From Bacteroidota bacterium (GTDB taxonomy: Bacteria > Bacteroidota > Bacteroidia > NS11-12g > UBA955): a stretch of DNA of 64,000 nt. Below the pieces are notes generated by a model. It was not told the DNA's origin. It saw only the letters and a program-made list of their open reading frames with translations, and did not search any database. Below, piece after piece: positions 34,075-38,227 of the stretch. Location: contig CANMBF010000007.1 in NCBI GenBank assembly GCA_947496065.1, positions 1-64,000 of the forward strand, written 5' to 3'. How positions within the stretch are numbered: position 1 is the first letter of the stretch; each line of letters begins with the position of its first letter. The position numbers were made by a program, and so were the translations under genes.

Positions 34075-35364
34075 ATGAAAAGAACACTCGTTTGGTTCAA
34101 AACCGATTTGCGTTTGCACGACAACGAAACCTTGGTGCACGCCATCGCACACAGCGATGAAATAGTACCAGTGTATTGCATAGATCCCCGACAATTTGAA
34201 ACCAATGCCTTTGGATTTCAAAAAACAGGAAAATTCAGAGCCCAATTTTTACTAGAAAGTTTAGCAGATTTAGATAAAAATTTAAGAGCACTTGGTTCGG
34301 GTTTATTAGTTGTAAAAGGCTTACCAGAAGAAGAATTATTGGCTTTGGTAAAACAATACGCTATACAAAAAGTAGTAGCCAAAAAAGAAGTGGCGTACGA
34401 AGAATTACAGATACACGATGCGGTTGAACGCGCGCTGTGGACTGTGCAATGCCCTATCGAAACGTATAGCAGCAGCACCTTGTACCATGCCCAAGATTTG
34501 CCTTTTGCATTGAAAGATATACCCGATGTGTTTACGAATTTTAGAAAACGCTTAGAAAAAGAAGTGAACATCAGAGCAGCATATGAAACACCTAAAGCTA
34601 TTCACGCACCTGAAATACCACCTCTGCAATTGCCCACTTTGGCCGACCTAAATTTAGAACCCATTAAACCTGATAAGCGAGCCGCCTATAGCCTCAAGGG
34701 AGGCGAGACAGCGGCTTTAAAAAGACTGAACCACTACCTCTTTGGCACCAAAGCCTTATCGACTTATAAAGACACCCGAAATGGCTTAATTGGCGATGCA
34801 TATTCAACTAAATTTTCGGCCCATTTGAGCATGGGTTGTATATCGGCTCGCAGCATTTATTATGCAGTAAAAAAATACGAAGCACAACTCGGTGCCAATG
34901 AATCGACTTATTGGCTCATCTTTGAATTGATGTGGCGTGATTATTTTAGGTTCATGATGAAAAAATACCGACAAAAATTTTTCTTACAACACGGCATACA
35001 AAATTCTAAAGATAACTTACAAAACCACGATGCCACCTTATTTGCGAAATGGCAAAATGCAGCAACAGGCATTGCCTTTATCGATGCGAATATGCGAGAG
35101 TTGAACAGCACAGGCTTTATGAGCAACAGGGGCCGACAGAATGTAGCCAGTTATTTGCACAACGATTTAAAATTAGATTGGCGTTATGGCGCAGCCTATT
35201 TCGAGCAGCAGCTCATCGATTACGATGTTTGCAGCAACTGGGGCAACTGGGCTTACCTATCAGGCGTAGGCAACGATCCCCGCGGTCAACGCACCTTCAA
35301 CACCGAAAAACAAGCCCTCGACTACGACAAAGACGGAGCATATAGAAAGCTATGGGCGAAGTAA
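34075..35364 (+). CDS. Cryptochrome DASH-like photolyase
   Basis: A 429-residue photolyase-family protein. N-terminal RTLVWFKTDLRLHDNETLVHA (2-22), then VYCIDPRQF and FRAQFLLESLADLDKNLRALGSGL, typical of DASH cryptochromes. In the FAD domain: KDTRNGLIGDAYSTKFSAHLSMGCIS, WLIFELMWRDYFRFM, NANMRELNSTGFMSNRGRQNVAS pattern (with D for the first N) and YDVCSNWGNWAYLSGVGNDPRGQRTF, all DASH-specific. DASH proteins repair CPD lesions mainly in single-stranded DNA and may sense blue light. It starts with no gap after the FeS photolyase and ends the operon; the repeat region follows. Confidence 0.93.
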   Translation: MKRTLVWFKTDLRLHDNETLVHAIAHSDEIVPVYCIDPRQFETNAFGFQKTGKFRAQFLLESLADLDKNLRALGSGLLVVKGLPEEELLALVKQYAIQKVVAKKEVAYEELQIHDAVERALWTVQCPIETYSSSTLYHAQDLPFALKDIPDVFTNFRKRLEKEVNIRAAYETPKAIHAPEIPPLQLPTLADLNLEPIKPDKRAAYSLKGGETAALKRLNHYLFGTKALSTYKDTRNGLIGDAYSTKFSAHLSMGCISARSIYYAVKKYEAQLGANESTYWLIFELMWRDYFRFMMKKYRQKFFLQHGIQNSKDNLQNHDATLFAKWQNAATGIAFIDANMRELNSTGFMSNRGRQNVASYLHNDLKLDWRYGAAYFEQQLIDYDVCSNWGNWAYLSGVGNDPRGQRTFNTEKQALDYDKDGAYRKLWAK

Positions 35365-35438
35365 AAAAACCACTGACTAACACCAATAACTATTAACCAA
35401 GCACAACGATAGTTGAAAGCGAGACATGCGGGCTGGGT

Positions 35439-35521
35439 CCACGCATGCGTAAAAATTTTATCTTGTCAGACTATGAAGGGTTGAATGCGCGGCAAGACAA
35501 GGTGAAATTTTCTATGCGTGG
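35439..35521. repeat. Long imperfect hairpin element, first copy
   Basis: CCACGCAT (35439-35446) pairs with ATGCGTGG (35514-35521); AAAATTT (35452-35458) with AAATTTT (35505-35511); CTTGTC (35462-35467) with GACAAG (35496-35501). The inner loop contains TATGAAGGG, GAA and GCGCG. In copies 2 and 3 (near 35790 and 36130) the outer left arm is replaced by the CCCGAT palindrome. Confidence 0.75.
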
Positions 35522-35529
35522 TGGGCTTT

Positions 35530-35567
35530 TTTTATTACTTTTTTGCCCAAACAAAAAAGTAATAAAA
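35530..35567. terminator. Long AT-rich hairpin after the repeat element (also 35870-35907 and 36210-36247)
   Basis: TTTTATTACTTTTTTG pairs perfectly with CAAAAAAGTAATAAAA around the loop CCCAAA (16-bp stem). It is preceded by GGGC and T7. It could end transcription from the photolyase operon. It is repeated exactly at +340 and +680; a decayed copy lies near 36404-36440. Confidence 0.55.
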
Positions 35568-36318
35568 GCTTAGTTTTTATGCAAAACCATTTCCCAATGC
35601 ACAACATTAGTTGAAAGCGAGACGTGTGCGGGTGGAGTCCATCCCGATAAAAATCGGGACGTAAAAATTTCATTTGTTCAGCGATGAAGGGAAAAGATCA
35701 TTGACTAAAACCAATAACATATACCATAGCACAACGATAGTTGAGTGCGAGACGTGCGGGCAGGGTCCATCCCGATAGCAATCGGGACGTAAAAATTTTA
35801 TCTTGTCAGACTATGAAGGGTTGAATGCGCGGCAAGACAAGGTGAAATTTTCTATGCGTGGTGGGCTTTTTTTATTACTTTTTTGCCCAAACAAAAAAGT
35901 AATAAAAGCTTAGTTTTTATGCAAAACCATTTCCCAATGCACAACATTAGTTGAAAGCGAGACGTGTGCGGGTGGAGTCCATCCCGATAAAAATCGGGAC
36001 GTAAAAATTTCATTTGTTCAGCGATGAAGGGAAAAGATCATTGACTAAAACCAATAACATATACCATAGCACAACGATAGTTGAGTGCGAGACGTGCGGG
36101 CAGGGTCCATCCCGATAGCAATCGGGACGTAAAAATTTTATCTTGTCAGACTATGAAGGGTTGAATGCGCGGCAAGACAAGGTGAAATTTTCTATGCGTG
36201 GTGGGCTTTTTTTATTACTTTTTTGCCCAAACAAAAAAGTAATAAAAGCTTAGTTTTTATGCAAAACCATTTCCCAATGCACAACATTAGTTGAAAGCGA
36301 GACGTGTGCGGGTGGAGT

Positions 36319-36401
36319 CCACGCATGCATAAAAATTTCTTTCGGTAAGGTATGAAGGGCGAACCTGCGCGAGAAGACCGATTGAAATTTTCTATGCGTG
36401 G
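36319..36401. repeat. Long imperfect hairpin element, last copy, with compensatory changes
   Basis: It has the same architecture as 35439-35521: CCACGCAT (36319-36326) with ATGCGTGG (36394-36401), AAAATTT with AAATTTT, but the inner stem is TCGGT (36342-36346) with ACCGA (36377-36381). Three base pairs differ on both sides and still pair. The loop keeps TATGAAGGG, GAA and GCGCG. Confidence 0.75.
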
Positions 36402-36402
36402 T

Positions 36403-36807
36403 GGTTTTTTTGTTACTTTTTTGTCCAAACAAAAAAATAAGAGAGTAAGCTTTGCAAAGCAAAGCTCCTTAGCAACAAACTTTTTACAAAATAAAACCCA
36501 AGTTTTTCAACCATGCATATTCTACAACGTAAATCAATTTGGTGATTGCGACAAGGGCGGGACATAATGAAAGTTGTTTTAAAAGTGAGTAAGTATAAAT
36601 GAAAATAAATTTCTAATAAATTCGGCGAATAAATTTGTGCGATTTTACCCTTGTTAGCGGCGTTGGCTATATAAGAGAAAAGTTCTCCAATATTTATTTA
36701 AAAGTAACTTTGCTATTTAGTTGAAATTAGCCATTCTCTTTTTTTTAGAAATAAAAGACCCATAACACACTTATTTCCAACTTTCTCTAACACTCAAAAT
36801 TTTATTT
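36403..36807. other. Intergenic region upstream of corA
   Basis: About 400 AT-rich bases. It contains GCTTTGC-AAA-GCAAAGC (36450-36466 region), an orphan -7 box TAACTTTG (36705-36712) with no start codon close behind, and a T8 run at 36743. I see no gene. Confidence 0.45.
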
Positions 36808-36831: not shown

Positions 36832-37920
36832 ATGCCTAAATTTAAATTGCCCCATCGCAAACCTACCCAAAGTACCCTTTCGGCCAAGTCGGGGATGCTA
36901 CCCGAAAGCATGGTGTATGTTGGCAAAGAAAGAACAGGCGAGGTCATTCTCGATGTTATCAATTACGATGAAAACATACTCGAAGAACAAGTGTTAAAGC
37001 ATGCAGCCCAATGCGAGCATTACAAAGCACAAAATACTGTGACTTGGATAGCAGTGAGCGGGGTTCACAAGGCCAGTTTGGTGCAAGAAGTATGCGAGTC
37101 GTTTAATATTCACCCCCTCATACAAGAAGATATTTTAAATACCCAACAGCGCACCAAAATAGAGGAGTTCGAAAATTATTTATTCGTTACCTTTAAAAAT
37201 ATTTTCATTCCCAAAGAAGGCACCGAAATAGAGACCGAGCAAATCAGCATGATACTCGGTCATAATTTTTTATTGACGTTTCAAGAAACGCCTAGTCCAT
37301 TATTCGAAGAAATTAAACAACGCATACGCACTAGCAAAGGCACCATCCGTCAGCGCAAGGCTGATTACTTGATGTATAAAATTTTGGATGCTGCGATCGA
37401 CCAATATTTTGTGATGATTGATATGATTAGCAATAAGGTGGAGGATGTAGAAGAGGAAACCATGTATTATCCGAATTCTAAAACATCCTTTAAAATCCAA
37501 GCCATTAAGAAAGAAATTATGTTGTTAAACAAACATATTTTGCCCATGCGCGAGGCCCTTAACAAATTAGAAGCAGGTGCTTCCGACCTTATTGAAACTC
37601 GTAATATCAATTATTTCCGCGATGTATATGACCATACTTTCCAAGCCTATGATACGATAGAAAATCACCGCAGTTTATTGAGCGATTTGATGAATATTTA
37701 TTTCACTACCACTAGCAACAAACTAAACCAAGTAATGAAAGTGCTCACCATTATTAGCACCATTTTTATGCCGTTAAGTTTCTTAGCAGGTGTATTTGGC
37801 ATGAACTTCAAGTATTTTCCAGGCATCAATTATCAGTATGGGTATTATATCTTTTGGGCCATTGTAATTATATCTGTCACCGGCATGATGGTGTACTTTA
37901 GGCGCAAGAAGTGGTTCTAG
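36832..37920 (+). CDS. corA: CorA-type magnesium/cobalt channel
   Basis: A 362-residue inner-membrane divalent cation channel. A large cytoplasmic domain (1-295) with long helices (about 180-290) precedes two C-terminal transmembrane segments, roughly 300-320 and 335-355. The selectivity motif G-M-N stands at 323-325 (VFGMNFKYF), followed by a short periplasmic loop, and the protein ends with the basic FRRKKWF. As a homopentamer it imports magnesium, possibly cobalt or nickel. The gene is monocistronic: a -7 box stands 16 bases upstream and a dense cluster of hairpins directly downstream. Confidence 0.93.
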   Translation: MPKFKLPHRKPTQSTLSAKSGMLPESMVYVGKERTGEVILDVINYDENILEEQVLKHAAQCEHYKAQNTVTWIAVSGVHKASLVQEVCESFNIHPLIQEDILNTQQRTKIEEFENYLFVTFKNIFIPKEGTEIETEQISMILGHNFLLTFQETPSPLFEEIKQRIRTSKGTIRQRKADYLMYKILDAAIDQYFVMIDMISNKVEDVEEETMYYPNSKTSFKIQAIKKEIMLLNKHILPMREALNKLEAGASDLIETRNINYFRDVYDHTFQAYDTIENHRSLLSDLMNIYFTTTSNKLNQVMKVLTIISTIFMPLSFLAGVFGMNFKYFPGINYQYGYYIFWAIVIISVTGMMVYFRRKKWF

Positions 37921-38098: not shown

Positions 38099-38211
38099 CT
38101 CAAAAGTAAATTCCCATCCAACACTTCTTGTCTTCTGCTATCGCACAAGCTACCACATCGAAGCAACAAACCATCACACCAGCAATACCACCCCGAAGCT
38201 TGTCACCCTGT

Positions 38212-38227
38212 CCCGATAGCTATCGGG
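38212..38227. repeat. Dispersed palindrome CCCGATAGCTATCGGG
   Basis: A perfect 16-base palindrome with the same core (CCCGAT..ATCGGG) as the inserts in the repeat array at 35.6-36.1 kb. The surrounding TGTCCC and GGGAGTCGAAGGG look like a fixed longer element. It lies in the 435-base gap between corA and paaE, which holds no gene. Confidence 0.6.

Follow-up and report, generated by a model that had tools for sequence, protein, structure and literature searches.

The window analysed here, a stretch of 64,000 nucleotides from a Bacteroidota genome, carries several copies of an element of about 140 nt in which a GTGCGG leader and a long hairpin (stems P1 and P2 with a conserved loop) are followed by a 3' H-type pseudoknot. 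Judged by the comparison of its copies, its dispersal as a repeat is certain and its folded structure is firmly established. We hold with moderate confidence that it is a dispersed REP-like repeat that is selected as a folded single strand, most likely of RNA, and acts as a stability element at the 3' end of read-through transcripts. RNA is the likelier selected form than single-stranded DNA; the stability role is our best guess and is unproven.

The initial annotation had drawn attention to two 83-nt hairpins at 35439-35521 and 36319-36401, and direct reading finds both there, with the inner stems (CTTGTC/GACAAG in the first, TCGGT/ACCGA in the last) and the shared loop parts (TATGAAGGG and GCGCG) that it described. 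In folding, both beat 200 of 200 dinucleotide shuffles (z of -5.1 for the first and -4.2 for the last). The 3-base internal loops assigned to the first copy are instead T.G, A-T and T.G pairs, so that its stem is a continuous helix of 16 bp (35452-35467/35496-35511); of the two hairpins, only the last has a genuine internal loop, of 2x2 bases. Nor does the element end at 35521 and 36401 as proposed, as a conserved pseudoknot runs on to about 35563 and 36441.

Further copies in the same genome were found by a DNA search and then with a covariance model (R1), and a broader model (R2) was built from 31 copies. At 35.42-36.44 kb the window holds six copies, four of them full and two partial, all on the forward strand, as are the neighbouring genes for a DNA photolyase (34075-35364; PF00875, PF03441) and a CorA-like Mg2+ transporter (corA, 36832-37920; PF01544). 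The first copy, at 35426-35563 (R2, 140 bits, E-value 7e-36; direct reading), is complete, from leader through hairpin to the proposed triplex pseudoknot. Its P1 pairs CCACGCAT (35439-35446) with ATGCGTGG (35514-35521), its P2 pairs AAAATTTTATCTTGTC with GACAAGGTGAAATTTT in 16 contiguous pairs, and its terminal loop (35468-35495) contains the conserved TATGAAGGG and TGCGCG. Helix S1 of the pseudoknot joins TGGGC (35522-35526) to GCCCA (35545-35549), the loop L1 consists of seven T (35527-35533), and helix S2 joins TTACTTTTTTG (35535-35545) to CAAAAAAGTAA (35552-35562). The last copy, at 36306-36441 (R2, 138 bits), is also complete, with P1 at 36319-36326/36394-36401, S1 formed by TGG (36402-36404) and CCA (36425-36427), L1 at 36405-36411 and S2 at 36413-36424/36429-36440. 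Between them, an exact 340-bp tandem array of 2.6 units (35448-36321) carries the second copy (35754-35903; R2, 91 bits) and the third, identical one (36094-36243; R2 match), in which a small hairpin module, TCCCGATAGCAATCGGGA, stands in for part of the 5' arm of P1 (35770-35787 and 36110-36127, respectively). S1 measures 5 bp in the first three copies and 3 bp in the fourth. Direct reading and the R1 search also gave two truncated copies 340 bp apart: the first, at 35625-35692, comprises only the 5' half with an insert of TCCCGATAAAAATCGGGA (a weak R1 match covers 35624-35744), and the second lies at 35965-36032.

Class-wide, the element begins with about 10 free nucleotides, GTGCGGC, GTCCACGAAAA (P1), an internal loop with GTGCGAACC, a P2 of 14-18 bp and a loop around GGCGTTGGC-TGTGCGACAAGC; it continues with the second arm of P2, TTTTCGTGG (second arm of P1), S1, the U-rich L1, S2 and the second strands of S1 and S2, and ends at about AAAAAGTAA. 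Copies in G115 and in RYN_274 have nothing in common beyond these limits. The arms of P1 vary across the family (CCACGAAT/ATTCGTGG, CCACGAAC/GTTCGTGG, CCACTAAAT/ATTTAGTGG and others). Optional small hairpin modules occur at fixed places of the element, both in the window array and elsewhere (L008, L010, L011 and others): in the 5' arm of P1 (TCCCGATnnnnATCGGGA), after the T run (ACTCGC..GCTCATGAGA..GCCTTCGGCTAAG) and in the S2 loop (CCAAGTATTCGC..TTATCAAAAAA or ACCACGAAGTCGCAGCGAAGC). The same small module is nested in another repeat at 38208-38226 of the window, where TCCCGATAGCTATCGGGA lies inside CCCTG..TCGAAGGG. UBA6183-type copies (L196, L204, L225, L229) have an extra 5' stem upstream of GGTGCGG, GAGTC..TTC with GAATGA(C/T)TC, which seems to covary, its form in L229 being GAATC/GATTC.

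Is the fold itself under selection? The initial annotation had argued that what is selected is a folded single strand and not its sequence, and every test made bears this out. Among 18 distinct hairpins, an arm forms a far better duplex with its own partner than with those of other copies (mean of -20.7 versus -10.9 kcal/mol), and none of 20000 permutations did as well. A MAFFT alignment of 31 copies, made without structure, has 92.6% of its cells paired, and 23 of 35 pairs have changed on both sides; sliding the partner lowers pairing to 43-56%. In the model-fitted class-wide alignment of 60 distinct rows, 95.1% of cells are paired and 30 of 35 pairs have changed on both sides, a result matched by none of 500 shuffles. 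We report both alignments since those fitted to a model favour the structure, which the MAFFT alignment does not. Covariation thus lies far above background in permutation, shuffle and slid-partner controls alike. A chance origin of the two hairpins is excluded, because covariance-model search found many further copies with covarying stems, both within this genome and well outside it. Among the hairpin pairs, G.T exceeds A.C about ninefold (87 versus 10, and 46 versus 5), which argues that one strand is selected. This points to a fold kept on the single strand of this sense and speaks against a double-stranded cruciform.

The part of the element that escaped the first reading is its 3' domain, where S1, formed between the bases that follow P1 and the loop of the last hairpin, gives an H-type pseudoknot. 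S1 has about 20 complementary forms among relatives, including TGGGC/GCCCA, TGGCC/GGCCA, TGTC/GACA, CGTC/GACG, TGCC/GGCA, TCTGC/GCAGA, TCTC/GAGA and TCGCC/GGCGA, and it differs even between near-identical copies within one genome (GCC/GGC versus CGTC/GACG in G390). Over 52 distinct pairs, own strands form 3.6 bp and crossed strands 2.4 bp, with none of 20000 permutations as good. In about one tenth of the 124 3' domains read, S1 has 2 bp or is absent (for example L106, L200, L237, L282 and L305). S2 is paired in 98.6% of cells of the class-wide model-fitted alignment, and 9 of its 11 pairs have changed on both sides.

Between the two strands of S1 sits the T run, L1, and its sequence follows that of the A-rich strand of S2. 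Wherever this strand is interrupted by G, L1 is interrupted by C (21 of 21 distinct domains), and wherever it is uninterrupted, L1 has no C (64 of 64); in these latter domains the lengths of T run and A run are correlated (Spearman 0.77, n=64). L1 takes the mirror order of the A-rich strand in 20 of the 21 interrupted domains: A4 G A3 faces T4-5 C T3, and A3 G A4 faces T4 C T4. Asymmetric domains show that this is the order of a parallel Hoogsteen strand and not a copy of the 5' arm of S2; it is opposite to the order expected of a competing duplex. Such sequence rules are what a U.A-U/C.G-C major-groove triple helix between L1 and S2 would leave behind, a helix in which the T run of the first window copy would be the third strand by both length and C/G mirror. 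The 3' domain would accordingly combine two covarying, crossing helices with a third strand in parallel Hoogsteen register, as in H-type triple-helix pseudoknots. We know of few clearer comparative signs of an RNA triple helix than a loop that mirrors the strand opposite, C for G.

Within the genus, the window's own genome and 8 of 16 others have this layout (9 of 17 in all), with up to 38 copies in one. A first, narrow covariance model found nothing in 42 genomes of other genera, and a pattern scan gave clear relatives in the Bacteroidota MAGs UBA6183, RYN_274, RE-16jun15-135, D4_MAG_00005 and Gw_SlAct_bin_24. Another match of that scan, in a Deltaproteobacterium (L191), lacks the fold and is due to chance. 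At E<=0.001, R2 matched 111 of the 395 Bacteroidia genomes scanned. We relied only on those at E<=1e-9, which comprise 47 of the 395 genomes in 18 families, one of these genomes (G424) looking doubtful when read; weaker matches in other genomes (E-values of 1e-8 to 1e-3) were left out of the counts, and copy numbers from this class-wide scan, in which up to eight candidates were scored in each genome, are lower bounds. Four such weak matches (L338-L341) yielded no 3' domain on parsing, and outside the class R2 gave weak matches only. A phage origin was considered and rejected, the covariance model confirming neither of two viral pattern matches. A search of plasmids for the whole G115 element found none. 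No family of Rfam 15 matched the window at gathering score, and at a lax threshold the region gave chance matches only; we found no description of the element in open-licence papers.

Copies are almost always intergenic, single or in tandem, and the genes next to them are unrelated and face either way, contrary to the suggestion of a processing signal for the photolyase operon. The same annotation had also offered a REP-like mobile hairpin and a non-coding RNA; each appears partly right, and the two are mutually compatible. In G004 and G014 the copies lie inside MITE-like units with paired terminal inverted repeats (TIRs; AACGTGAGTTCGGGTTAAG), and no such pair was recognised as bracketing a transposase among the matches listed, where the DNA between was left untranslated. 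A MITE-like unit is also seen in G390 (L268-L274), with the TIR GGGTTCACTCAAAAAGTCGG and 6-bp TANNTA target duplications. Terminal inverted repeats were not found in G001, G003, G012 or G015, nor were ends of the TIR type seen in the genome of the window or in G012, G115 and others; for the G004-type TIR, the window genome gave one match with 3 mismatches against two in the reversed control. At one locus (L003), G004 and G014 lack about 390 bp, a candidate empty site with no clean TIR or duplication at its ends; a second site for this comparison (L009) falls on contig ends. The same L003 locus of the window genome (G000) and its ortholog in G006 (C27, L156) have identical flanks around a wholly different hairpin interior, both arms included, and the copies there apparently convert one another.

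In several lineages (G115, G012, RYN_274), copies are scattered between genes and lack both terminal repeats and target duplications. This might suggest that the element folds as single-stranded DNA and that its structure is the signal for mobility, read by a transposase or other HUH-type enzyme as in REP/RAYT or IS200/IS605 systems, RNA being irrelevant. Structure on one strand is equally expected of single-stranded DNA, with which the G.T tolerance and the triplex rule are also compatible, and the window genome does have Y1 transposase genes. Neither of these adjoins the element, however: the gene on C2 is flanked by another palindrome (ATCCCTACGGGAT) and the one on C65 by none, so a RAYT origin was rejected. 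The best Y1 (RAYT-like) gene, that on C2 (L022, G000:C2:125677-126021), lies amid many ATATCCCGTAGGGATAT palindromes and forms with them a REP-like system of its own in this genome. Neither a REP-type tag nor a recurrent short target was noticed at the copies of the element. RNA is, moreover, the more usual setting for conserved unpaired loop bases and a long U.A-U triplex. We consider the DNA reading unlikely.

If the element is an RNA, it would be transcribed by read-through from a neighbouring gene, having no promoter of its own (promoter-like sequence was seen at 1 of 122 copies in sense and 3 in antisense). The hairpin would be the first part to fold, and completion of S2 would let the poly-U loop lock into the triple helix, leaving an RNA end that, by analogy with known triplex RNAs, may resist 3'-5' exonucleases and, together with the conserved loop, would probably bind a protein. 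Such a stable, insulated 3' end would make intergenic insertions tolerable or useful. Copies would persist by purifying selection and gene conversion, and copying would probably occur in trans, by putative host-borne transposases.

Could the element instead be a cis-acting device of the upstream gene, P1 and the T run forming an intrinsic terminator or mRNA-stability signal? The T run does begin at most 5 nt after P1 (P1 is followed by TGGGC and then T5-8, the run that doubles as L1), and the upstream gene points towards the element in 77 of 115 cases. Among 101 copies with genes on both sides, convergent pairs outnumber divergent ones (33 versus 9), a bias that avoidance of promoters would give equally well, whereas the two co-directional senses are nearly equal (32 and 27), which suggests that no gene owns the element. 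Transcripts that ended at the T run would, furthermore, lack S2 altogether, although selection acts on S2, on S1 and on the mirror rule of L1. We consider such a cis-acting role distinctly improbable.

That no named family fits, as originally stated, holds for Rfam 15 but not for the 3' module, which is shared with elements of Proteobacteria that carry TwoAYGGAY (RF01731). Searched with the triplex module of one copy, BLAST gave matches in plasmids and secondary replicons of Ilyobacter, Pseudoalteromonas, Aeromonas, Burkholderia, Paraburkholderia and Pasteurella; in Paraburkholderia, it listed at least 38 matching places in each of seven replicons. The module is preceded there by long hairpins of other sequence, and most keep the complementarity of S1 (for example TCGCC/GGCGA in Pasteurella and GTGGCC/GGCCAC in Aeromonas). 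In Pseudoalteromonas this hairpin is TwoAYGGAY, in 3 of 3 matches in L349 and one in L343, and the Rfam match ends before the pseudoknot; in Ilyobacter, Aeromonas, Pasteurella and Paraburkholderia the module follows other hairpins. RF01731 has no gathering-score match in the window, and its absence from the window genome and 19 relatives (0 of 20) is a weak result, as controls gave no match either. In Burkholderia (L346:1532-1643), the Rfam sRNA Bp1_684 (RF02421) starts within the module's A-rich strand, and the start annotated for it may therefore be wrong; it covers the DNA downstream of this strand and not the hairpin or pseudoknot. In Ilyobacter polytropus pILYOP01 (L344, 1501-1546), a photolyase gene lies about 210 nt downstream of the module; that the copies in the window also adjoin such a gene, on its downstream side, is probably a coincidence.

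The passages of PMC2864571 that deal with TwoAYGGAY report it from gammaproteobacteria, Clostridiales and the human gut and list it among probable RNAs, with neither a cis-regulatory nor a riboswitch role. CsrA binding has been proposed for it (PMC4333381), and the parts of both papers that concern it mention no triplex. Since TwoAYGGAY runs directly into the module in Pseudoalteromonas, the element may be the Bacteroidota variant of a wider kind. A trans-acting small RNA in many redundant gene copies, for instance a protein sponge like that proposed for TwoAYGGAY, would account for the conserved unpaired loop, the high copy number and the shared 3' module in Pseudoalteromonas, but the Bacteroidota loop has no AYGGAY hairpins, there is no promoter and, to our knowledge, most Bacteroidota lack CsrA, so that we find it very unlikely.

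The preferred reading, a read-through RNA with a protected 3' end, extends tentatively to a broader one: it is possible that this is a multi-phylum bacterial repeat, selfish or domesticated, that spreads as DNA and lives as RNA, with a swappable hairpin and a 3'-protecting triplex pseudoknot. If so, it would be a bacterial counterpart to the triplex stability elements of long eukaryotic and viral RNAs. An RNA fold kept across many families of Bacteroidia, in up to dozens of copies per genome, has been missing from Rfam. As gammaproteobacteria have the module right after TwoAYGGAY, that Rfam family, whose function is unexplained, seems to have been only half described.

Among known mobile repeats, the element resembles the REP, BIME and REPIN sequences associated with RAYT transposases in being short, intergenic, palindromic and dispersed in many copies with tandem clusters. 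It exceeds them four- to sevenfold in length, however, carries conserved loops as well as a pseudoknot and, unlike REP, does not adjoin the RAYT-like genes of its own genome. MITEs include, for example, Correia, ERIC and RUP. In G004, G014 and G390 the element is MITE-like, as cargo between TIRs with short TA-rich target duplications, but different lineages have different TIRs around the same RNA core and others, the window genome among them, have none. With TwoAYGGAY (clan CL00106) it shares a long closing stem, multiple copies and, in Pseudoalteromonas, the module directly on the 3' side. The terminal domain of TwoAYGGAY consists of two hairpins with AYGGAY loops, whereas the Bacteroidota copies have one long hairpin with different loops, such as GATGAAGGGCGAGCCTGCGCGAGAAG. 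The closest parallels to the 3' domain are the triplexes of telomerase RNA, SAM-II, SAM-V and MALAT1, in which a U-rich strand likewise lies parallel on A-U pairs beside a second helix; known triple-helix H-type pseudoknots include the SAM-V riboswitch (PMC6061858), and MALAT1 represents the 3' stability type (PMC11411715). Unlike these, the predicted triplex described here belongs to a high-copy dispersed bacterial repeat, and its loop co-varies, C for G, with the strand that it faces.
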